DNA from: Halomonas ventosae
GTDB taxonomy: Bacteria; Pseudomonadota; Gammaproteobacteria; Pseudomonadales; Halomonadaceae
Reading direction: 5' to 3'
Assembly (NCBI RefSeq): GCF_004361885.1
Contig: NZ_SNWH01000005.1
Coordinates: 62,001-126,000 of the forward strand
DNA: 64,000 nucleotides
Below, piece after piece: positions 44,200 through 59,537 of this stretch. The position numbers and the translations under genes were made by a program. Below the pieces are notes generated by a model, which saw only the letters and a list, made by a program, of their open reading frames with translations, was not told the DNA's origin and ran no database searches. The first letter of the stretch is position 1, and each line of letters begins with the position of its first letter.

Positions 44200-45156
44200 C
44201 TACTCGGCTAGCTTGCCGACGCTGACGATGCCTCGCTCGGCCAGCTGCACCAGGTGATCGTCATCACGGGTCCAGGCGGCCATGGAGCCGTCGTACATGG
44301 TAGCGTTCTTCAGTCCGCCGATCTCGCTGAGCTGGAACCAACCGCTGGCGGCCCAGTGGCCAGTATTGCAGAAGACCACGGCGGGTGCCTCGCGGTCGAG
44401 ATCGAGTTCGTCGATGCGGGCCATCAGCGAGTCTGGCTGCAGGTAGTAGGCCCCGTCGCGCTCCGCGAAGCTGCCATCATGGGGCAGGTTCACCGAGCCG
44501 GGAATGGTGCCGGGCACGCGGGCGGCAGGTGATTTTATCTCGCCTCTGTAGAAGGCCGGCGGGCGGGCATCCACCAGCGGTTCGCCGGCGTCGAGGGCCG
44601 CTTCGACCTCCGCGGTGGTCGCCAGCAGCTGCTCCTGCAGGGAGCCTGAGAAGTCCGTGGCCTCGGGCGCGTCGGGGGTGCCGGAGGCGACCTCGAAGCC
44701 CTGCTGCTCCCAGCCGGCGAAACCGCCGTTGAGAATGGTGACCTCGTCATGGCCCAGGGCCTTGAAGGTCCAGTAAACCCGGGTGGCGCTGCCGAAGTCG
44801 GTGGGGCCCGTGCCGGCCGGAACCACCACCACGGTGTCGTCATTGTCGATGCCCAGGCCGCCGATCAGGGCTTCGAGGTCGTCGACGCCGGGCATCAGGC
44901 CGGCCACTCCGTGGCGAGCCTCGCGCCAGCCGGCATCGGTGTAGTTGCTGTAGCGGCTGCCGGGGATATGAGCCGCCTCGAAGCTCGCTCGGTCGCCGCC
45001 GTCATCGATGGCGGAGCGTACGTCAAGTATGACCAGGTTGTCGCTGTCCAACTGCTGGTCGAGCCACGCAGCCTCGACCAGCGGAGCGGGATGCTGGGCA
45101 TGGACCGGGCCGGCCAGGGCCAGGGTGCCAGCGGCGAGTAACAGACTACGTTTCAT
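44200..45156 (-). CDS. Exported two-domain rhodanese (sulfurtransferase)
   Basis: A 318-residue protein with a signal peptide (KRSLLLAAGTLALAGPVHAQ), then two rhodanese domains. The N-terminal domain (about 25-150) lacks the catalytic Cys. The C-terminal domain (about 165-300) carries Cys in VVFCNTGHWAASGWF. It should move sulfane sulfur from thiosulfate or a similar donor in the periplasm. The linker VDARPPAFYRGE is typical. It is monocistronic and convergent with the HAD gene. Confidence 0.92.
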   Translation of the reverse strand: MKRSLLLAAGTLALAGPVHAQHPAPLVEAAWLDQQLDSDNLVILDVRSAIDDGGDRASFEAAHIPGSRYSNYTDAGWREARHGVAGLMPGVDDLEALIGGLGIDNDDTVVVVPAGTGPTDFGSATRVYWTFKALGHDEVTILNGGFAGWEQQGFEVASGTPDAPEATDFSGSLQEQLLATTAEVEAALDAGEPLVDARPPAFYRGEIKSPAARVPGTIPGSVNLPHDGSFAERDGAYYLQPDSLMARIDELDLDREAPAVVFCNTGHWAASGWFQLSEIGGLKNATMYDGSMAAWTRDDDHLVQLAERGIVSVGKLAE

Positions 45157-45307: not shown

Positions 45308-45877
45308 TCAGCCTTTCCAGGCATAGTCGGCGAAGGCCTCGTCGAGTTCCGGGTGGTTGACGTGGTTGGAGTAGTTGGAGAGCGTCTTGACCGCCAGGGC
45401 CAGCACGATCTGCAGCACCTGCTGCTCCTCGAAGCCGGCATCCAGGAACGCCTTGACGTCCGCCTTGCTGGGCATGCCCCGGGTCTCGAACATCACCTTG
45501 GTAAACTCGGCGAGGGCCGCGAGGCGTTCGTCGGGAATCGGCTGGCCGTTGCGAATTGCTTCCAGCACGTCGGCAGGAACCTGGGACATCTTGTCGGCCA
45601 GCATGCTGTGAGCAGACATGCAGTAGCCGCAGCCGTTGAGTCGGCTGATGGTCAGGAAGACCACCTCCTGCTCGGGCGGCGCGAAGCCTGAATCGTTGCG
45701 GAACAGTTCATAGCCGTGCAGGTAGGTGCTCAGCACGCCCGGTGCCTTGGCCATGCTCTCATACATGTTGGGCACGAAACCCAGTGCCTGGTTGGCCTGC
45801 TCGAGCAGCGGCTTCGCCTTGGCATCGGCGTTGTCGAGGGTCTGGGGGGGAAGTTGCATCTGATAATCGGCGGACAT
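45308..45877 (-). CDS. AhpD-like carboxymuconolactone decarboxylase family protein
   Basis: A 189-residue AhpD-fold protein with the redox pair CGYC in SRLNGCGYCMSAHSML. Such proteins act as alkyl-hydroperoxide-related disulfide reductases. ATG 45877 is chosen because AAGGAGG lies eight bases upstream. The frame is open to 45940 but that end is repetitive (two copies of a Met-Lys-Asp-Pro-Thr-like unit). Upstream is a nearly perfect palindrome (45941-45962) that also precedes the TetR gene, so the TetR protein should repress it in response to an oxidant or toxic compound. Confidence 0.88.
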   Translation of the reverse strand: MSADYQMQLPPQTLDNADAKAKPLLEQANQALGFVPNMYESMAKAPGVLSTYLHGYELFRNDSGFAPPEQEVVFLTISRLNGCGYCMSAHSMLADKMSQVPADVLEAIRNGQPIPDERLAALAEFTKVMFETRGMPSKADVKAFLDAGFEEQQVLQIVLALAVKTLSNYSNHVNHPELDEAFADYAWKG

Positions 45878-45940
45878 GGTGTGTGCCTCCTTCATGGTCG
45901 TGGGGTCTTTCATGGTCGTGGGGGTCTGCTGTTGTGCCAT

Positions 45941-46730: not shown

Positions 46731-49124
46731 ATGACGGAGCAGCATTCGCCGACAAGGCGCTTCTGGCTCGGCGGCAAGCGCGCCGCCGAGCAGGACCGGT
46801 TCTTCCGTGAGGCCCTGGAACCCCTGGGCTGGCAGCTCGGCGACGAGCACGATTGGGACGCCGGCTGGATCACCGGCATGCCGGATGCCGCGCAGTTCCG
46901 GCGTGTCTCGCCGACGCGCAAGATGAACCACTTCCCGGGCAATGCGGCGCTCACCGTCAAGAGCCGGCTCCATGACAGCCTCGCCACCCTTCGCGAGCGC
47001 ATTCGGGAGAGCCATGGGGCCGACCATGACCTTGTCCGGCGGCTGGCGTTCTTTCCCCGAGCCTACGTGATGCCCGGTGACTACCATGCGCTGCAGGAGG
47101 CCGCCCAGGCCGACCCCGGGCAGCGCTGGATCCTCAAGCCCACCAATGCCTCCAAGGGCAAGGGTGTGCAGGTGCTGCAGGATGTCGCCGAGGCGCCTCT
47201 CGCGCGGGACTGGCTGGTACAGGAGTATCTGGCCAATCCCCATACCATTCGCGGCCACAAGTATGTCCTGCGCCTCTATGTGCTGATCACCTCGCTTGCG
47301 CCGCTGCGCGTCTATCTCTATCGCCAGGGCTTCGCCAAGCTGGCCTCGGAGCCCTGGGATCCCGAGGATGCCGACAACCCCTACAGCCAACTCACCAACC
47401 CGGACATCAATGCCCTGAATAGCCACGCCGAGGCGCCGGTGGAGTTCATCGACCTGGAGCGATACCGGGCCTGGTTGAGAGATCAGGGGCACGACGACGA
47501 GGCTCTCTTTGCGCGCATCGAGGACCTGGTGGCCCTGACTACGATCTCCGCCGTGGACGCCATGCGCGCTCGCACCGCCGAGGCCGGCGCCGACCCCCGC
47601 GGCTGCTACGAGCTGCTGGGACTCGACTGCCTGGTGGACGACACCCTCAAGCCGTGGATTCTGGAGTGCAACCTTAGCCCCTCGCTGGGCATCTGTGCCG
47701 CTCCGGAGACGGGGGGGCGCGTCGAGGAGGCCGTCAAGGGCGGGCTGGTGCATGACATGGTGGCGCTGGTCGATCTCCCCGGACGGGCCCTGTCCGAGGC
47801 TGGCACTGCCGCCAAGGAGCCGGACGTCACGGCGCAACTGGCCGCCGAAGCAGCGGCCGAGCAGGCACGTGCCGGCGGCTTCCAGCGGCTGCTGCCGGCC
47901 GTCGAGCCCGAACGCTACCTGCCCTACTTCGCCTTGCCCACTCCGGCCGACCTGCAGCTGGCCGAGACCCTGGCAGGGCGACCCCTGCCGCCCCTGCGGT
48001 TGCAGCGGCGCCACGTGGCGGAATTGGTCGACGAGGAGCGTCTTGCCCTCTATGACACGCGCGGCGGTCGCTACTACCGGCCCAACGACACGGCGGCGCT
48101 GATCTGGTTGCTGGCGACCGAGGGAGTGGACCCCGATGCCATCGCCGATGAGCTGGCGTTTGCCAGCGCCGAGGCGGGAGTGCCGGCACAGCTCTCGGCG
48201 CTGCGTAGTGATGTGTGGAACACCCTGCACGACTGGTGCTGTGCCGGCCTGCTCTGCCAGCAAGGCGCTGCACCGGCAGCGTCGTCGGAAGAGGGTGAGA
48301 TCCATGACGAGGCAACGTCAGTGTCGTCGTCGAGGTGGGCCATGAGGCTCCAACTGGACGGCCGTGACTGGGCCCTGGACGTGGCCAGCAGCCCTGCCAT
48401 GGCGCGCTTGGCGACATGGTTCGGCGAGTGGCTCTCGCCGCTTGACGCCGAGGCGGCGCGCCGGCTGCCGCGGCTGGCGGTACTGCAGGAGTCCGGCGGC
48501 TATGCCCTGGCCACCGATAACCGGCTGCTGGCGTCGCGGCTGACGCTGGCGCAGCTGGGTCCGGTATTGACATCGCACCTGATTCGCCAGGCCGCGATGC
48601 CCGGCCGCCCGGTCGTCGACGCTGGCCTGCTGATCACGCCGCAGGGCAGCGGAGTGCTCTGTCTGCTCCCCGATGGGGAGGAGAGCCGCGCCCTGCTGCA
48701 GCGGCTGCGGGAGGCCACGGGAGGCGTGCTGACCCGCGGCGTACGGCTGAACCTCTCGGATCCGAGCATCGCCGAGCCCCTGGACTTTCCCCTGCCGGGC
48801 GTCGCCGGAGCCTCGAGCGGGTTGCCCGCTGCCGTGGCTCTCCGCGGTATGCTGCTGCCGGCCAAGACGTCTGCTGACCAGGCTCTTGTCCCGGTTGCCA
48901 TGCTGGAGGCGCTTGGCGACCTGCTGCCGAATTGCCTGACCGTTGATGGCCAGGCGCTGGATGCCCAGAGCGTGATGGTTCTCGGCGACTGGCTCTCCAC
49001 CCTGGCCTTGAGTGCGGTGAAGGTGGGCCCGGGGGCGCCGGATGCCGCGTCACTGACCGATTGGCTGGTCACCCGGGTAGACTCCGCCCCCTCGGTCACT
49101 CGTCCCACCATGGCGAGAGGATGA
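46731..49124 (+). CDS. TTL-like ATP-grasp ligase fused to PqqD-like and HprK-like domains
   Basis: A 797-residue three-part protein. Residues about 60-350 form a tubulin-tyrosine-ligase-like (TTL/TTLL) ATP-grasp domain: WILKPTNASKGKGVQVLQD (133-151), VQEYLANPHTIRGHKYVLRLYVLITS (163-188), and ELLGLDCLVDDTLKPWILECNLSPS (294-318) with metal residues Glu312 and Asn314. Residues about 425-510 resemble a PqqD-like peptide-binding domain (LYDTRGGRYYRPNDTAALIWLL). Residues about 537-797 resemble an HprK-related kinase whose P-loop is degenerate (PDGEESR). TTL enzymes add amino acids to protein tails. The next gene encodes a Glu/Gly-tailed peptide, the obvious substrate. ATG 46731 follows AGGAGATCC. 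Confidence 0.82.
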   Translation: MTEQHSPTRRFWLGGKRAAEQDRFFREALEPLGWQLGDEHDWDAGWITGMPDAAQFRRVSPTRKMNHFPGNAALTVKSRLHDSLATLRERIRESHGADHDLVRRLAFFPRAYVMPGDYHALQEAAQADPGQRWILKPTNASKGKGVQVLQDVAEAPLARDWLVQEYLANPHTIRGHKYVLRLYVLITSLAPLRVYLYRQGFAKLASEPWDPEDADNPYSQLTNPDINALNSHAEAPVEFIDLERYRAWLRDQGHDDEALFARIEDLVALTTISAVDAMRARTAEAGADPRGCYELLGLDCLVDDTLKPWILECNLSPSLGICAAPETGGRVEEAVKGGLVHDMVALVDLPGRALSEAGTAAKEPDVTAQLAAEAAAEQARAGGFQRLLPAVEPERYLPYFALPTPADLQLAETLAGRPLPPLRLQRRHVAELVDEERLALYDTRGGRYYRPNDTAALIWLLATEGVDPDAIADELAFASAEAGVPAQLSALRSDVWNTLHDWCCAGLLCQQGAAPAASSEEGEIHDEATSVSSSRWAMRLQLDGRDWALDVASSPAMARLATWFGEWLSPLDAEAARRLPRLAVLQESGGYALATDNRLLASRLTLAQLGPVLTSHLIRQAAMPGRPVVDAGLLITPQGSGVLCLLPDGEESRALLQRLREATGGVLTRGVRLNLSDPSIAEPLDFPLPGVAGASSGLPAAVALRGMLLPAKTSADQALVPVAMLEALGDLLPNCLTVDGQALDAQSVMVLGDWLSTLALSAVKVGPGAPDAASLTDWLVTRVDSAPSVTRPTMARG

Positions 49125-49141
49125 CAGGAGCACGAGCATAT

Positions 49142-49221
49142 GGTGATGCCTTCCGGCATCACCGATGAAGATGTCGGCCACCTTGCCGGCGTCACGGCAA
49201 CACGACATGTTCGGCATGTCG
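49142..49221 (+). other. Two intercistronic hairpins between the TTL-like ligase and the peptide gene
   Basis: Hairpin one: 9-bp stem GGTGATGCC (49142-49150) and GGCATCACC (49155-49163) with a TTCC loop. Hairpin two: 7-bp stem CGACATG (49203-49209) and CATGTCG (49215-49221) with a TTCGG loop. Neither has a T tract. They could stabilise the 3' peptide message after processing, giving more peptide than enzyme. Confidence 0.55.
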
Positions 49222-49249
49222 CTCAATCTGTATCAAGGAGATCATGATC

Positions 49250-49519
49250 ATGACACTGCAAGACGAGAAGCGCCGTAGCCTGATGAGTCGCCTCAGCCGT
49301 CAGCTGGGCTATGCGGCACCAGTCCTCGCCCTGGTCGCCAGCGGAGCGGCCTTCCAGGCCGTGGCCGGCGAGACGTCCCCCGAACTTGGCTATACCAATG
49401 GCCAGGAGGCTCCCCTGATGCTTGCCGAGGCCCACGCCGAGGGTGGCGCCGAGGCCGAAGGGGAATCGGAAGCCGAAGGCGAGGGTGAAGCAGAAGGCGA
49501 GGGCGAAGGCGAAGGATGA
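49250..49519 (+). CDS. Exported small peptide with Glu/Gly repeat tail, probable ligase substrate
   Basis: An 89-residue protein. The N-terminus has a twin Arg (EKRRSLMSRL), then a hydrophobic segment (YAAPVLALVASG) and a likely signal cleavage after AVA (39), so it is exported by Sec or Tat. The mature part ends in an acidic tail (about 60-89) with repeated Glu-Ala-Glu-Gly and Glu-Gly units, very like the C-terminal tails of tubulins. It aligns without gaps to residues 1-89 of the cytochrome encoded at 58884 (47 identities by hand count). AAGGAG at 49235-49240 favours ATG 49250 over 49244. A strong terminator follows, so it ends the ligase operon. Confidence 0.8.
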   Translation: MTLQDEKRRSLMSRLSRQLGYAAPVLALVASGAAFQAVAGETSPELGYTNGQEAPLMLAEAHAEGGAEAEGESEAEGEGEAEGEGEGEG

Positions 49520-49538: not shown

Positions 49539-49571
49539 CCAGGCCGCCACCACGGTGGCGGCCTGGCTTTT
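49539..49571 (+). terminator. Rho-independent terminator after the peptide gene
   Basis: A perfect 12-bp stem (49539-49550 with 49555-49566; CCAGGCCGCCAC / GTGGCGGCCTGG) with a CACG loop, then CTTTT. It marks the end of the ligase-peptide transcript. Confidence 0.88.
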
Positions 49572-49635: not shown

Positions 49636-50211
49636 ATGACATCACCTCACCCCCGGCCGTCTCCCGACACCGCGCGTCTCGTCGAGGAAAACCTGATGAC
49701 CCTTTCCCAGCTGAAGGACATGGTCGCCTCCCTTTCACCCGACATCTATCAGCAGGCATTCGGCGAATACGGGCGCCACACCCTGGGCAAGCATGTGCGT
49801 CACATCATCGATCATTACGATGCCCTCCTCGTGGGGCTCGAGCGAGGAGGGGAGGTCATCGACTACGAACAGCGCCGACGCGACGAGGCCCTCGAGCAAT
49901 GGCCGCAGCAAGCCGCAAGCCATCTGGCCGGCATCGAGTCAAGGCTGTCGGTGCTGGGCGGTGAGCCGTCTTCGGCCGCGCTGACCCTGGCCTATCCCCT
50001 GGATGAGGAGGGGCTCTCCCTGGCGTCAAGCCTGGACCGTGAGCTTGCCTTCCTGACCAGTCACAGCATTCATCACATGGCTATCATTGCCCTGCTGGCC
50101 GAACAGTCGGGTATCCATCTGCCCGAGACATTCGGGGTGCATCCCTCCACGCTTCGCCACTGGCAGCGGGCGCCAGAGGAGCAGGCGTCATTCTCGCGGA
50201 GGAGTGCCTGA
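49636..50211 (+). CDS. DinB-family protein
   Basis: A 191-residue four-helix DinB-like protein. The metal-type His residues appear in KHVRHIIDHYDALLVG and SHSIHHMAIIALLAEQSG, and the end GVHPSTLR is common in this group. DinB-like proteins include thiol-dependent transferases and many unknowns. ATG 49636 follows AGGAT. Its stop overlaps the start of the first DUF302 gene (TGATG at 50209-50213), so the two are coupled. The chemistry is unknown. Confidence 0.8.
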   Translation: MTSPHPRPSPDTARLVEENLMTLSQLKDMVASLSPDIYQQAFGEYGRHTLGKHVRHIIDHYDALLVGLERGGEVIDYEQRRRDEALEQWPQQAASHLAGIESRLSVLGGEPSSAALTLAYPLDEEGLSLASSLDRELAFLTSHSIHHMAIIALLAEQSGIHLPETFGVHPSTLRHWQRAPEEQASFSRRSA

Positions 50212-51245: not shown

Positions 51246-51452
51246 TCAGTGCCCGTCATCGCCTTGCTCGGCGTCATCATGTTCGGGGTGGTATCGCCGG
51301 CCGGCTTCATGAAGCAGCGTGAACTGTCTGTCGCACTCTCGGCAGGCGCTGCACATGGAAAGGTGTAACCTCAGGGAGAGACGTTCCTGGAAGGTGAGAG
51401 GGCGGTCCTGCCTGAGGGACATCAGGCGGGTCGCCTCCTTGCACATCATCAT
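51246..51452 (-). CDS. Small zinc-finger anti-sigma factor
   Basis: A 68-residue protein with the zf-HC2-type zinc site: Cys in MCKEATRL, then His-x3-Cys-x2-Cys in LHLSMCSAC. Such short ZAS proteins bind and hold ECF sigma factors until a redox change releases zinc. Its ATG overlaps the sigma stop (ATGA at 51449-51452). The C-terminal tail is His/Asp-rich. It has no membrane helix, so the signal is likely cytoplasmic. Confidence 0.82.
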   Translation of the reverse strand: MMMCKEATRLMSLRQDRPLTFQERLSLRLHLSMCSACRECDRQFTLLHEAGRRYHPEHDDAEQGDDGH

Positions 51453-52027
51453 GCCGTGTCCTCCTTAAGCCAGCCCTTCTCGATGCAGGCCCTGAGTCGC
51501 AGCCGAGCGCGATGCAGTATCACCCAGCAGTTGTTCTCCTTGATGTCCAGCTCGTGGCAGATATCGGCGGTGGAGAGCCCCATCAGCTCGCGCAAGGAAA
51601 ATACCCGGGCGGCATTTTCCGGCAGGGCGATCATGCAGGCATCGAAGACCTTCCAGAAGTGTTCGTTCTCGAAGGTCGCCTCGGGCTCCCCCCAGCGAGA
51701 TGGGCGTGCGTCCTCCTGCCAGCGGCCATCGCGCTGGAACTGTCGGTCGATGGCGTCGTCATCGCCTTCATCCTCGAGAGGCTGCCATCGTCCATGGCGT
51801 TTCTGGACGCGCATGGCGTCGAGGATCTTGTACTTGAGGATGCCAAAGACCCAGGTCTCGTAACCGGATCGCCCGGCGAAGTTTTCGCTCTTTTCGATGG
51901 CGGACATCATGGCCTCCTGTACGGCATCCTCGGCCTGGCTTCGATCACGCAAGTGCATGAGGGCGAAGGAGACCAGGCGTGGCCTGACAGCCGTAAGTCG
52001 TTGTAGTCTATCTTCTTTTTCGTTCAT
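51449..52027 (-). CDS. ECF sigma factor
   Basis: A 192-residue sigma-70 of the extracytoplasmic-function group. Region 2 reads LMHLRDRSQAEDAVQEAMMSAIEKSENFAGRSGYETWVFGILKYKILDAMR. Region 4 (ALPENAARVFSLRELMGLSTADICHELDIKENNCWVILHRARLRLRACI) recognises the -35 element. It is first in a two-gene operon with its anti-sigma. It may control the neighbouring DUF302, DinB and peptide genes, but I could not find a convincing shared -35/-10 motif. Confidence 0.92.
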   Translation of the reverse strand: MNEKEDRLQRLTAVRPRLVSFALMHLRDRSQAEDAVQEAMMSAIEKSENFAGRSGYETWVFGILKYKILDAMRVQKRHGRWQPLEDEGDDDAIDRQFQRDGRWQEDARPSRWGEPEATFENEHFWKVFDACMIALPENAARVFSLRELMGLSTADICHELDIKENNCWVILHRARLRLRACIEKGWLKEDTA

Positions 52028-53870: not shown

Positions 53871-54506
53871 TCAGTGGGACAGTTCGATCACTCGCCCACC
53901 GGCATCCTCGGCATCTTCAGCGTCGTGGGTGACCAGCAGGCTGGGCAGGCCGGCCTCGCGCAGGCGATCGAACACCCGCCGGCGCATCTCGTGACGCAGA
54001 TGGGTGTCGAGCTTCGAGAAGGGCTCGTCGAGCAGGACTGCACAAGGGGCCGACAGCAGCAGGCGCATCAGCGCCACTCGGGCCTTCTGGCCGCCGGAGA
54101 GGGTGGCCGGGTCCCGATCGCCGAAGCCGGCAAGGCCGATGTTTGCCAAGGCCTGCTCGACCCGCGCGGTCTTGTCGGCGCTGCCCCCGGGCATGCCGAA
54201 GCGTAGGTTGCCGCCCACCGACAGGTGGGGAAAGAGCAGCGGGTCCTGGAACAGTAGGCCGATGCCGCGCTGCTCGGCCGGCAGGCCGCTGATGTCGCGG
54301 CCGTCGAGCAGCACCTGGCCGCGGGCCTGGAACGCGGGGGCCAGGAAGCCGGCGAGGTAGGCGAGCAGGGTCGACTTTCCCGAGCCGGATGGCCCCATGA
54401 CAGTGAGGACCTCGCCGGGAGCGATCTCGGCATCGAGCTTTACCAGTATCTGGTCGCCCAGCTGGAGGCAGATGTCACGAAGTTCGAGGCGATGGGTGGC
54501 GTTCAT
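53871..54506 (-). CDS. ynjD: ABC transporter ATPase, YnjD-like
   Basis: A 211-residue ATPase: Walker A GPSGSGKST, Q-loop LLFQDPLLFPHLSV, signature TLSGGQKARVAL, Walker B CAVLLDEPFSKLD and switch LLVTHDAEDA. Its ATG at 54506 overlaps the permease stop (ATGA). With YnjC and YnjB it forms an uncharacterised importer. In E. coli the cargo of YnjBCD is also unknown; thiamine-related and sulfur compounds have been suggested. Confidence 0.92.
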   Translation of the reverse strand: MNATHRLELRDICLQLGDQILVKLDAEIAPGEVLTVMGPSGSGKSTLLAYLAGFLAPAFQARGQVLLDGRDISGLPAEQRGIGLLFQDPLLFPHLSVGGNLRFGMPGGSADKTARVEQALANIGLAGFGDRDPATLSGGQKARVALMRLLLSAPCAVLLDEPFSKLDTHLRHEMRRRVFDRLREAGLPSLLVTHDAEDAEDAGGRVIELSH

Positions 54507-56185
54507 GGGGCTCCCTGCATGGCGCGGCGATTCGACCATAGCAATCTAGGCAGGCCGATGGCGATGATGAAACCCGCCAGCGGCAGGCTGGCCTGGATCA
54601 GTGCCCAGACGCCGATCACCCGGCGGTTGCCACCGGCAGCCAGCGAGACCGCCTCGGTGGTGACGGTGGTGATGCGTCCTGCCCCCAGCAGCTGGGTGGG
54701 CAGGTACTGGCCGATACTCACCGCCAGCCCCACGGCCAGGGCGGTGAGGATCGGCGCCAGCAGCATCGGCAGGCGTATCCGCCAGAAGGCCCCGTTGCGC
54801 GAGGCCCCGAGCGTCAGGGCCAGCCGCGTCCAGCGTGGATCGAAGCGCCGGTAGGCCTCGGAGAGTGAAAGGAACACGTAGGGCAGCACGAACAGCAGGT
54901 GGCCGAAGGCGACCAGTGCATGGGTCGGTCGCATGCCGAGCTGCTCCATCATTACCACCAGGCCGAACAGGAAGGCGACCTGCGGCACGATCAGCGGCAG
55001 GTAGAGCAGCCACAGAGCCCGCGAGGGGTGTCGGCTGCTGCGCTGCTCGTGTTCGAGTGCCGCCAGGGCCAGCGTCACGGCGAGCAGTGTCGAAGCCAGG
55101 GCGATCAGCGCCGTCGAGGCGAGTGGCCCGGCAAGCGAGGGCAGGGCCCGGGCCCAGTGGGTGGCGGTGAAGCTCTGCGGCAGGGCGTTGGGAAAGCGCC
55201 AGAAGCCGGCCACCGAGTGGATCGCCAGGCCGGCGATGCCGACGAAGGCGACCACCGTGGCCAGCAGGATCCACAGCTTGCCGGCGAGATGCAGGCCCGT
55301 CTCGCCTCGACGCCGTCCGCCGTGGGCGATCCAGAGACCCATCAGCCGCCTGGCGGCCTGCTCCAGCCCCCACCAGATCGCCAGCGCCATGGCGGTGACA
55401 CCGAGCTGCAGGATCGCGCCGGCCGAGGCCAGGAAGCGCTTGTCGAGATCCGGATCGCTGAACCAGGTGAGTATCGACACGGCAAGCGTTGGCGGCAGGG
55501 TGGGGCCGAGGATCATCGCTACATCCACCACCGACGAGGCGAAGGCGATCACCGCGTAGACCGGCAGCCGGATCAGCGGATAGAGCGATGGCGCGACCAC
55601 TTTCCACCAGGCCAGGGTCGGGCGGTAGCCCAGTGAGCGGGCCATGGCGATTCGCCGTTCGGGATCGAGCTGGGGCAGGGCCGCCAGGCTCATCAGCAGC
55701 AGGAAGGGAATCTCCTTGATCACCAGCCCCGCGATGAGCGACAGCCCCCAGGGATCGTGGACGATCAGCAGGTCCGGCGGGCGCTGCCAGCCGGTCAGCC
55801 CCGGCGAGGCGAGACGTGCGATCAGCCCTGAAGGGGCGATCAAAAAGGCCAGGCCGAAGGCCGCGGCGGCATGGGGAAGAGAGAGTAGTGGCGAGATCAG
55901 TCGGCGAATCCATCGGTCGAGCCGGCTGCCGGTCGCGGCGGCCAGATAGAGCAAGACCACTGCCAGCGAGATGGCGGTGGCGAGCAGTCCGCTGGCGAGG
56001 CTGATGGTGACCGAGCGCCATATGCCGGGCTCGGCAAACAGGGCCCGCCAGGGGGCGAGCGTCAGGCTCTCCCCGCCCAGCGCCGGCAGGTAGCCGAAGG
56101 CCGGCAGCAGCACCATGGCTAGGCCGGCCAGGATCGGCGCGACCAGCAGCAGCACGATCAATATCGGCGCCAGGCGCAGCATCAT
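54503..56185 (-). CDS. ynjC: Fused ABC transporter permease, YnjC-like
   Basis: A 560-residue membrane protein made of two permease halves (about 1-280 and 300-560), each with about six helices and its own EAA-like loop. The first contains LISPLLSLPHAAAAFGLAFLI; the second contains PLIVPQVAFLFGLVVM and GASRNGAFWRIRLPML. This matches YnjC and similar fused permeases. It is coupled to ynjD by four bases. ATG 56185 or 56182 is the start. It is 46 bases after ynjB. Confidence 0.92.
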   Translation of the reverse strand: MMLRLAPILIVLLLVAPILAGLAMVLLPAFGYLPALGGESLTLAPWRALFAEPGIWRSVTISLASGLLATAISLAVVLLYLAAATGSRLDRWIRRLISPLLSLPHAAAAFGLAFLIAPSGLIARLASPGLTGWQRPPDLLIVHDPWGLSLIAGLVIKEIPFLLLMSLAALPQLDPERRIAMARSLGYRPTLAWWKVVAPSLYPLIRLPVYAVIAFASSVVDVAMILGPTLPPTLAVSILTWFSDPDLDKRFLASAGAILQLGVTAMALAIWWGLEQAARRLMGLWIAHGGRRRGETGLHLAGKLWILLATVVAFVGIAGLAIHSVAGFWRFPNALPQSFTATHWARALPSLAGPLASTALIALASTLLAVTLALAALEHEQRSSRHPSRALWLLYLPLIVPQVAFLFGLVVMMEQLGMRPTHALVAFGHLLFVLPYVFLSLSEAYRRFDPRWTRLALTLGASRNGAFWRIRLPMLLAPILTALAVGLAVSIGQYLPTQLLGAGRITTVTTEAVSLAAGGNRRVIGVWALIQASLPLAGFIIAIGLPRLLWSNRRAMQGAP

Positions 56186-56231
56186 CGCGCGCGCCTTGTC
56201 GCGGCAGAAATCACGGCGTGGGGTCTCGCTA

Positions 56232-57485
56232 TTAGTTGCCGATGTAGCGGGCCTGCCAGGCGTCCTGCAGGGCTGTCATCCAGCTGGGATGCGGCTCGGG
56301 CAGCGTGCGCTGCAAGGCGCCGGGCGGCAGCATCGCCGGGTTGTGCTCATCCAGGGAGAACAGGGCCCGGCTGTCGTCATCGAGACGCGCCACGTCGAGC
56401 ACGGTGCGATCCCCCCAGACGTCGAGATCCTGCTTGTGGGCCTGAGCCTTGGGCGAGAGCAGGAAGTCGGCGACCACCAGAGCGCCGGCCTGGTGGGGCG
56501 AGTTGAAGGGAATGGCCACGAAGTGCACGTTGCCCAGGGTGCCGCCCTGGGGCACATAGCTGCGAGTGCTTTTCGGCAGTTCGAAGTCGGCGACCGCCGC
56601 CGCCGGCTCGGAGGGGGTGAAGGTGAAGGCCAGCGACAATTCACCGTCCCCCATCAGGCGGCGCATCTCGGGGCCGGTAGCAGGAAACTGCCGCCCGCTG
56701 CGCCATAGGTGAGGGTGGAGCGCATCCAGGTAGTCCCACAGCGGCGCGGTGACGGCCGCGAAGTCGCTCTCCTCGACCGGCGCATAGAGGGCCTCGTCCT
56801 GTTCGCTCAGCTCGATCAGAACCTGCTTGAGGAAGGTGCTGCCGGTGAAATCGGGGATTCGTGGATAGGTGAAGCGTCCGGGGTTGGCCGCGGCCCATTC
56901 CAGCAGGGCAGGCATGTCCTGCGGGGGCGCTGCCACCGGCTGGTTATCTCCGCGGAGCTCGTCGCTATCTCCGCGAAATTCGTCACTATCATAGTAGAAG
57001 GTGATCTGCGCCCGTCCCCAGGGGGATTCGTAGCCCTCGGTGGGCAGGGTGAAGTCGGTGACGACCTCGGGGTTGTGCTCGGGGTGGGTGAGCGCGAAGT
57101 TCGGCAGCGACTCGGCGAAGGGGCCGAACAGCAGGTCGTTGGCCTTCATGGTGGCGAAGTTCTCGCCGTTGATCCAGATCAGGTCGACGCTTCCCTGGTC
57201 ATGGTTGCCGGCCTGTTTTTCGGCCAGAACCCGGGAGACCGCCTCGGCGGTGTCGCCGATCTTGACATGGGTGAGGTCGATAGCGAACTGCTCCTCGACT
57301 CGTCCGGCCACCCAATCGATATAGTCGTTGGTGCGCTGCTCACCCGCCCAGGCATACCAGTAGACCGTCTGGCCTCGGGCCTCGTCGAGCACCGCCTCCC
57401 AGTCGGTTGGATCGGGGGCCGCGGCGGCAGGGCCGCCGAGCAGGAGGGCGATGGGCGTGGCGGCAGCCAACAGACGAATCGGCAT
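56232..57485 (-). CDS. ynjB: ABC transporter substrate-binding protein, YnjB-like
   Basis: A 417-residue periplasmic binding protein with a signal peptide (PIRLLAAATPIALLLGGPAAAAP). Typical segments include VYWYAWAGEQRTNDYIDWVA, VDLIWINGENFATMKAN and FTFTPSEPAAAVADFELP. It contains an internal 7-residue duplication (DSDEFRG, DSDELRG) from a 21-base tandem repeat at 56946-56987. It is first of ynjB-C-D. Its leader has two 14-base direct repeats at 57501-57531. Cargo unknown. Confidence 0.92.
   Translation of the reverse strand: MPIRLLAAATPIALLLGGPAAAAPDPTDWEAVLDEARGQTVYWYAWAGEQRTNDYIDWVAGRVEEQFAIDLTHVKIGDTAEAVSRVLAEKQAGNHDQGSVDLIWINGENFATMKANDLLFGPFAESLPNFALTHPEHNPEVVTDFTLPTEGYESPWGRAQITFYYDSDEFRGDSDELRGDNQPVAAPPQDMPALLEWAAANPGRFTYPRIPDFTGSTFLKQVLIELSEQDEALYAPVEESDFAAVTAPLWDYLDALHPHLWRSGRQFPATGPEMRRLMGDGELSLAFTFTPSEPAAAVADFELPKSTRSYVPQGGTLGNVHFVAIPFNSPHQAGALVVADFLLSPKAQAHKQDLDVWGDRTVLDVARLDDDSRALFSLDEHNPAMLPPGALQRTLPEPHPSWMTALQDAWQARYIGN
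56946..56987 (-). repeat. In-frame 21-bp tandem duplication in ynjB
   Basis: Two 21-base copies (56946-56966 and 56967-56987), differing at a few positions, encode DSDELRG and DSDEFRG. The insertion is in frame within the binding protein. Confidence 0.8.
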
Positions 57486-58671: not shown

Positions 58672-58883
58672 GTCGTTCCTCGCGAGATGGTATTGCAATC
58701 GTTAACGTAGGGTCGTGCGGTGCAAGGCATTCCTTACATATCGGCGCCTGCCCGATGACCTGCTGCATGGCGGGCGACTGTAAGCCTGGAACAACATCAT
58801 CGACAAAAGGGAGCCGTTGGTGCGACACGCTGGAGCGAGGGCTCCAGATATCTCCTGGATGGACACAAGCGAAGGTGAACAAT

Positions 58884-59537
58884 ATGTCACAGCATGACGA
58901 ACAACGCCGCAAGCTCCTGGGCCGCCTGAATCGGCGACTGGCCTACACGGCCCCGCTGCTTGCCCTGGTGGCGGGGGGCGGTGTCCTTCAGGCCTCGGCA
59001 GGCGATGATGCGGCCATGGCCGACGTTACCTCGCCCTCCGATGCGTCCTTGATGCTGGCCAGCAACCACACAGAAGGGGCCGCCGAGGCCCAGGGCGAGG
59101 CAGAGGGAGAAGCCCAGGGTGAAGCGGAAGGCGAGGCCGAAGGAGGTGATAGCGCTGCGGTGGCAAGGCCCGAGGGGTATTCACCGGCCTACAGCGAGAC
59201 CGGCGACAACCCTCAGCAGATGCTGGCGCGAGGCGAGGCGCTCTATTACGACACATCCTTGAGCAGCAACGGCCTGGCCTGCGCGAATTGCCATGGCAGT
59301 AACGGTCAGGACATGGGATACAACTCGACATTCGAACAGCCCTTCCCCCATCGGGTAGCGATGGGCGCCCACCAGTTCGGCATGTCGGCAGTGCATGCCG
59401 ACGAGATGGTGCAGATCTGCATGGTAGTGCCGATGGCGGCCGAGCCGCTCGAGTGGGGCGGCGAGGCGCTGACGTCTCTGGCGGCCTACGTGGTGGAGGT
59501 TCAGAAGCGTGTCGCCGGAGAGCCGCATGATCTCTGA
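58884..59537 (+). CDS. c-type cytochrome with the Glu/Gly-tail leader
   Basis: A 217-residue exported protein. Residues 1-89 align gaplessly with the 89-residue peptide encoded at 49250: twin Arg, hydrophobic YTAPLLALVAGG, cleavage near ASA, then the acidic Glu-Ala-Gln-Gly/Glu-Gly repeat (about 66-88). Residues about 108-210 form a small monohaem cytochrome c: CANCH (133-137), with a Met such as Met180 as possible axial ligand. ATG 58884 follows AAGGTGA. It would carry electrons in the periplasm and be a second substrate of the TTL-like ligase. It is divergent from the APH-type kinase. Confidence 0.85.
   Translation: MSQHDEQRRKLLGRLNRRLAYTAPLLALVAGGGVLQASAGDDAAMADVTSPSDASLMLASNHTEGAAEAQGEAEGEAQGEAEGEAEGGDSAAVARPEGYSPAYSETGDNPQQMLARGEALYYDTSLSSNGLACANCHGSNGQDMGYNSTFEQPFPHRVAMGAHQFGMSAVHADEMVQICMVVPMAAEPLEWGGEALTSLAAYVVEVQKRVAGEPHDL

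Follow-up and report, generated by a model that had tools for sequence, protein, structure and literature searches.

A TTLL-type ligase fused to a RiPP recognition element and linked to Glu/Gly-tract proteins in Halomonas ventosae: a candidate leader-guided glutamylation system

We analyzed a 64,000-nucleotide stretch of Halomonas ventosae DNA (assembly GCF_004361885.1, contig NZ_SNWH01000005.1, positions 62,001 to 126,000 of the forward strand; the whole stretch is called the window below) that encodes an unusual fusion enzyme. This 797-residue protein joins a tubulin-tyrosine-ligase-like (TTLL) ATP-grasp domain to a recognition element of the kind used for ribosomally synthesized and post-translationally modified peptides (RiPPs), and the window also encodes two proteins, a small peptide and a c-type cytochrome, in which a common leader is followed by a Glu/Gly-rich tract. 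Our main reading, to which we give a probability of about 0.6, is that the RiPP recognition element (RRE) holds the leader while the ligase attaches amino acids (most likely glutamate) to the Glu side chains of the tract before export. What carries this reading was directly observed: domain homology, leader motif, genetic linkage, co-occurrence and the pattern of the tract. A more specific form of the proposal seems to us an even bet, namely that glutamyl branches are built on the regularly spaced Glu residues of Glu/Gly repeats in peptides and c-type cytochromes, that these enzymes are the first family of TTLL glutamylases in bacteria, with an RRE where the eukaryotic TTLLs have docking domains, and that their substrates form a new class of exported, leader-guided proteins.

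Domain organization of the enzyme

The enzyme gene (46731-49124, forward strand) was defined by its open reading frame (ORF), by Pfam matches to TTL and PqqD and by an AlphaFold2 model with a mean predicted local distance difference test (pLDDT) of 85.4 and a predicted template modelling score of 0.81. Residues 6-400 (46746-47930, forward strand) form the TTLL-type ATP-grasp ligase domain, assigned by fold match, profile and residue counts. Pfam TTL (PF03133) was matched at residues 62-322 with an E value of 9.6e-52 (176.4 bits against a curated cut-off of 20.1). Residue and domain counts for the enzyme are based on 38 relatives; the best PDB match of a profile built from them was the polyglutamylase TTLL6 (E 6.5e-54), followed by TTLL7 (1.1e-45), with weaker matches to TTLL11 (2.8e-26) and TTL (2.4e-14), among others. 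Fold searching, for which Foldseek was also run, gave a similar order, with TTLL6 aligned to model residues 6-400 over 373 residues (Z 43.6, 2.9 Å), TTLL7 at Z 33.6 and TTL at Z up to 32.1. The enzyme is nearer to the TTLL glutamylases than to TTL, and the complete TTL-type domain that an earlier note on this DNA had reported in a 797-residue protein was borne out by ORF, Pfam and fold match alike.

Six residues (K136, Q164, R181, D299, E312 and N314), which presumably have the catalytic roles usual in ATP-grasp enzymes, were invariant in all 38 relatives. Position 141 was S in 29 relatives and A in 9, position 142 was K in 27 and R in 11, and position 315 was always L, a combination closer to that of engineered TTLL6 chains (A, R and I at the equivalent positions in the PDB alignments) than to that of wild-type TTLL6 (C, Q and H). 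The engineered form, from Mahalingan's TTLL6 study of 2020, was reportedly made branch-initiating. The idea that TTL-type domains are common in bacteria was also considered and rejected: PF03133 had matches in 15 of 349 Pseudomonadota genomes, two of them spanning most of the model, one covering positions 61-282 and the other 12 spanning 32-95 of its 292 positions, and the A3 profile matched 3/398.

The ligase domain is followed by a PqqD-like RRE at residues ~421-510 (47991-48260, forward strand). PqqD (PF05402) was matched at residues 439-507 (E 6.8e-6) and was present in all 38 relatives. The single NCBIfam match of the window enzyme was to a lasso PqqD family and fell below the cut-off (22.8 against 70 bits); among the relatives, this family was matched in 20/38 and an HPr-rel-A PqqD family in 3/38. 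The enzyme profile also found the lasso RREs TbiB1 (1.7e-4) and TfuB1 (5.4e-4) in PDB, and the top fold matches of a separate model of residues 418-797 (pLDDT 87.9) were lasso RREs with bound leaders (6jx3, Z 13.8; 5v1u, Z 13.3; 5v1v, Z 13.0), in agreement with the PqqD-like domain of the earlier note. In RREs, according to the available part of PMC13381572, a conserved Asn holds the kink of the leader and an Asp binds its Tyr. Asn452, which is invariant among the relatives, may be this Asn, as judged from the TfuB1 alignment, and the Asp may lie at position 494; since that position was D in 20/38 and E in 7/38, the putative Tyr-binding residue is not strictly kept.

The C-terminal part, residues ~523-790 (48297-49100, forward strand), was tentatively assigned a PEPCK/HprK-like fold by fold search, and a motif count showed that it has no P-loop. 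Model residues ~106-365, which correspond to this part, were aligned with phosphoenolpyruvate carboxykinases (PEPCKs) over 245 residues (Z up to 10.8, 4.2 Å; Z values of 7-8 are typical in this search for models without a clear match), and the matches to HprK were weak (Foldseek E 0.014-0.025). A GK[S/T] P-loop (GxxxxGK[S/T]) was found in the C-terminal part of none of the 38 relatives, the two regular-expression matches being GR[S] elsewhere; no Pfam family matched the HprK-like part of the window protein, and none was common to the 38 C-terminal halves. Because the P-loop is missing throughout and the HprK matches are weak, the HprK-like domain of the earlier note stands as a likeness of fold only. 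Kinase activity of this part was rejected on the same missing P-loop; more probably it is a remnant that serves the structure or helps to position the leader.

Leader peptide, cytochrome and the Glu/Gly tract

The peptide gene lies 119 bp downstream of the enzyme gene on the same strand. Its ORF (49244-49519, forward strand) encodes 91 residues from the first ATG (49244) and 89 from the second (49250); the latter start gives the leader peptide proper (49250-49519), recognized by ORF, leader alignment and leader profile, and matches the 89-residue peptide with a Glu/Gly/Ala tail described before. The tail comprises the last 31 residues (49424-49516, forward strand), all E, G or A except one H and one S, and this alternating Glu-(Gly/Ala) tract is, from its composition, the proposed modification site. 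In the window copy, the codons for Glu, for Gly and for Ala are mixed, which argues against a recent pure repeat made by slippage. The peptide had no Pfam match at E values up to 1, and export was suggested by a hydrophobic segment with an AxA-like site after it, both read by eye.

The leader contains the sequence YAAPVL (49310-49327, forward strand), a YxxPxL motif identified from the leader alignment and from counts. It belongs to the class [Y/W]xxPx[L/V/I/A/F/Y], which the available part of PMC13381572 describes for most discrete lasso RREs and also for PQQ leaders. Two Leu and one Pro were the only invariant columns among 27 diverse leaders. Of 107 leaders, 95 fitted the pattern L..L.[RK]...X..P.Z, with X being Tyr in 74; when six of the remaining 12, recognized by eye, were added, YxxP was present in 80/107, and the Pro was present in all of them.

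The leader profile had two matches in the whole 3.24-Mb genome, both inside the window. The second (58884-59087; G000:C5:120884-121087) falls in an ORF at 58755-59537, and this protein, in which leader and internal E/G tract precede a cytochrome domain of the c type (CANCH), offers a second candidate for a substrate (58884-59537, forward strand; leader profile and ORF). Two cytochromes of this leader-bearing type from other loci matched SoxA/TsdA cytochrome c. As a separate observation, a CxxCH-containing reading frame (L106, 12038-12526) adjoins the system of a Rhodobacteraceae genome; it presumably encodes a cytochrome P460-type protein.

In all, 103 tract proteins were counted, 76 standalone and 27 cytochromes; four further leader matches that the parser could not place were left out. 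The alternation was regular, with another Glu at position i+2 for 1392 of 1732 Glu residues and EE occurring only 32 times. At four loci, tandem leader peptides were observed, one with an SPEA-type and one with an EGEG-type tract (L067 11395-12491, L073, L075 and L086), and L067 also has a DoxX-type gene between enzyme and peptides.

The position and composition of the tracts bear on two other reactions that the ligase might catalyze. First, it might extend the peptide at its C-terminus, in the manner of TTL with alpha-tubulin or of RimK with RpsF (S6), without internal branching. The standalone tract ends exactly at the C-terminus in 71/76 proteins, and RimK is itself a bacterial ATP-grasp ligase that works in this way (PMC12239564, in the part available). 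However, the 27 cytochromes among the 103 tract proteins all have internal tracts, mostly 114-131 residues before the end, which favors side-chain over C-terminal addition; moreover, the C-terminal residue varies among the 76 standalone proteins (G 48, N 6, S 6, Y 5, A 5, T 3, E 2 and Q 1), and the enzyme is closer to TTLL proteins than to TTL. We consider such an extension improbable. Second, the ligase might, like the graspetide enzymes, form amide or ester cross-links within the molecule. An ATP-grasp ligase, a leader-guided precursor and an acidic core would all fit, and K, S or T occurs in 53/76 standalone tracts. On the other hand, the graspetide combination of an acidic core with K, S or T partners is lacking in 23/76 standalone tracts, as it is in 3/27 cytochrome tracts, so that such links could hardly be obligatory, and the ligase is of TTL type, not of the PF02222 type that serves as RiPP identifier in the available text of PMC12710340. 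Cross-linking thus appears very improbable, and addition of amino acids to the Glu side chains is the reading that we prefer.

Co-occurrence and distribution

The earlier note had proposed a genome survey of the fusion together with tailed leaders, and we carried it out on 151 family genomes in 24 genera. The enzyme was present in 26 genomes (8/24 genera) and the leader profile matched in 26 (12/76 and 14/75); 25 genomes had both, one had only the enzyme (G021), one had only the leader (G119) and 124 had neither (Fisher p 2.9e-26, with relatedness ignored). In g1, a mixed genus of 24 genomes, ten had the enzyme, and the leader was found in the same ten and in G119. The enzyme of G021 is a remnant (L108, 4907-5725), cut to residues ~1-204 within the usual gene neighbourhood, and its genome had no leader match. 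The enzyme and leader genes are gained and lost together. Their association is not due to chance, since the leader profile has so few matches in the Halomonas genome, all of them in the window, and since the two co-occur across the 151 genomes.

These results also bear on the idea that, for a halophile, the tract is just an ordinary acidic repeat and that enzyme and peptide are linked for some unrelated reason. Acidic proteins are common in halophiles, which would agree with it. However, the presence and absence of enzyme and leader agree within mixed genera such as g1, the genome whose enzyme has been mostly lost has no leader match, and the leader motif is kept in leaders that have otherwise diverged. 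Of the alternatives weighed, we regard this one as the least probable.

A wider scan, in which each of 84,980 species was represented by one genome, yielded 92 relatives, and 80 loci were examined. The relatives were mainly from Halomonadaceae and Marinobacter, together with single metagenome-assembled genomes or genomes labelled Oleiphilaceae, Ectothiorhodospiraceae, Competibacteraceae, Alphaproteobacteria, Rhodobacteraceae and Pararhodobacter. The related ligases do not consistently lack a Glu/Gly-tailed gene nearby, a point on which the earlier note had made its reading depend: a tract protein was found in 75/80 loci, with a standalone precursor in 72 (71 by leader profile and L103 by composition) and the cytochrome type alone in three (L055, L090 and L104). 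Four loci (L063, L078, L089 and L099) end inside the enzyme gene or within 0.8 kb after it. Of the 69 standalone peptides that were parsed together with an enzyme end, 68 were downstream of the enzyme on the same strand, with a median gap of 106 bp (66 measured).

In L035 and L004, an in-frame TAG at codon 133 of the enzyme was observed next to an intact peptide gene; it is either a recent inactivation or a sequencing error. Carriage by mobile elements or viruses was considered and, as far as IMG/VR and plasmid records go, rejected, as none of 20 IMG/VR stretches that matched a pattern was confirmed and no match was found among 72,556 plasmid records.

A proposed mechanism and how it is weighed

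In the mechanism that we propose, the RRE (residues ~421-510) would bind, in the cytosol, the YxxPxL motif of the leader of the 89-residue peptide and the leader of the cytochrome c, and this binding would bring the tract, with its E-G/E-A alternation, to the ATP-grasp active site. There the TTLL part would phosphorylate the side-chain carboxylates of the tract Glu residues and join a free amino acid (most likely glutamate, possibly glycine) to them through its alpha-amine, giving short branches. Finally, the modified protein would be exported and its leader removed, and the outcome would be a strongly anionic peptide in the periplasm or outside the cell and, on the cytochrome, an anionic spacer. 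As a guess, the final role might be cation binding or electrostatic docking. We infer leader binding, catalysis, donor, branch site, the order relative to export and the final role; amino-acid addition to the side chains is suggested because the RRE class fits the leader motif, because the ligase and repeat classes fit those of TTLL5 and RPGR, and because gains and losses of the two genes coincide. The earlier proposal, in which the leader is recognized through the PqqD-like domain and amino acids are added to the tail, is thereby supported at the level of sequence and fold comparison.

Several observations weigh against this reading. In 38/38 relatives, Val179 stands where the KFDLR motif of eukaryotes has its Asp, which in TTL touches ATP, and Lys203 where GLAR has its Arg, so that activity of the enzyme cannot be assumed. 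In place of the motif Tyr, 5/107 leaders have His and 22/107 have V, I or some other residue, mostly in Marinobacter cytochromes. One genome (G119) keeps a leader-bearing cytochrome and had no enzyme match in its 17-kb region, and at one of the 80 loci (L107) no tract protein was found within 16 kb, which is a real absence. The model also leaves the HprK-like part and the neighbouring DinB-family protein (see below) without an explained role. The two replacements in the ligase, and the fact that the C-terminal domain is already without a P-loop, would both fit an enzyme that bound the leader and left the tract unmodified, either as an inactive escort ligase or as an enzyme with another target. 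Yet the other ATP-grasp residues are invariant in 38/38 relatives, and a Glu-rich tract is kept in nearly every locus. We therefore judge an escort or a different target unlikely, and retain modification of the tract as the preferred reading.

Neighbouring genes

It is plausible that enzyme and peptide are in the same operon. A consensus scan found no promoter, and a single terminator-like site (49539-49566) was located after the peptide gene, which is no more than shuffled sequences give (mean 0.9). Next comes the gene of a DinB-family protein (49636-50211, forward strand; Pfam DinB, E 4.5e-6), which is a conserved neighbour: such a gene was found in 60/62 loci of at least 18 kb and in 71/80 overall. 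The two long loci without it (L055 and L104) are also without a standalone peptide, and L106 has the peptide and no DinB gene in 12.7 kb. Since six His residues are common to 15/15 DinB homologues, this protein is possibly a metal-dependent partner enzyme.

The other recurrent genes were placed in families by way of Pfam-scanned representatives. A sigma factor was present in 56/62 long loci, a rhodanese in 34/62 and a C92-type amidase in 31/62; given the frequency of the sigma factor, stress control of the system is possible. In the window, an apparent pair of sigma factor and zinc-finger anti-sigma factor occupies 51246-52027, as judged by likeness to the scanned copies of L066. Amidase genes of the C92 (YaeF/YiiX) type were seen at 13461-14270 of L066 and 16867-17622 of L068, and these amidases could process or remove the modification. 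No dedicated leader peptidase was identified, though no search aimed at one was made. The system is further flanked by rhodanese genes, carboxymuconolactone-decarboxylase-family genes and an apparent ABC transporter (44200-45156, 45308-45940 and 53871-57485), and we take these flanking genes to resemble the ynj cluster of E. coli.

Relation to known systems and significance

The proposed system shares features with four known ones. The first is that of the eukaryotic TTLL enzymes (TTLL5-RPGR, PMC13052805; TTLL6, PDB 6vzq-6vzw). In the available part of PMC13052805, TTLL5 glutamylates the Glu-Gly repeats of RPGR and is held to add mainly monoglutamates. Like these enzymes, the window enzyme has the TTLL fold (residues 6-400) and a long Glu-Gly repeat as presumed acceptor, and its substrate would likewise be recruited through a part of the protein other than the catalytic domain. 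In contrast, it is bacterial, would recruit through an RRE and an N-terminal leader, has Val in place of the KFDLR Asp and faces a tract in which E alternates with G or A. The second comprises the lasso, PQQ and LPP RiPP systems, which, in what is available of PMC13381572, have both the RRE and the [Y/W]xxPx[L/V/I/A/F/Y] leader motif and include HprK-like proteins in their clusters; unlike these, the modifying enzyme here is a TTLL ligase, its HprK-like part is without a P-loop, the leader doubles as a signal-like sequence and the core is a Glu repeat.

The third is RimK-RpsF, in which a bacterial ATP-grasp ligase also adds Glu to a protein. It differs in belonging to the RimK family, in forming a C-terminal chain, in its ribosomal target and in having no leader (PMC12239564, available part). 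According to the same part of this source, no bacterial proteins other than RpsF and the Legionella ligase SdeA are known to be polyglutamylated. Bacterial protein polyglutamylation is itself already known through RimK, and the earlier reading is amended in this respect. The fourth is that of the graspetides, in which, according to the available part of PMC8939145, an ATP-grasp ligase likewise acts on acidic residues of a leader-bearing peptide; these enzymes make cross-links rather than additions, whereas the ligase of the window is of TTL type and some tracts are without a partner residue. In the open-licence literature, we found no paper that pairs a tubulin-tyrosine ligase with PqqD, RiPP or Halomonas, although an older or subscription description may exist, and among the matches listed, no title or beginning of an abstract mentioned a bacterial TTLL-RRE fusion.

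Work on TTLL glutamylation treats it as a eukaryotic system and deals mostly with tubulin and RPGR. If our reading is true, a eukaryotic-style protein modification would be present in bacteria, and TTLL glutamylation of Glu-Gly repeats would exist outside eukaryotes, either by ancient origin or by gene transfer. This would connect RiPP biosynthesis with the tubulin code, would bear on the origin of the TTLL enzymes and would offer a two-gene bacterial system for studying how they choose their sites. For the halophiles themselves, the reading implies that the anionic peptide and the cytochrome should both occur in modified form outside the cytosol.

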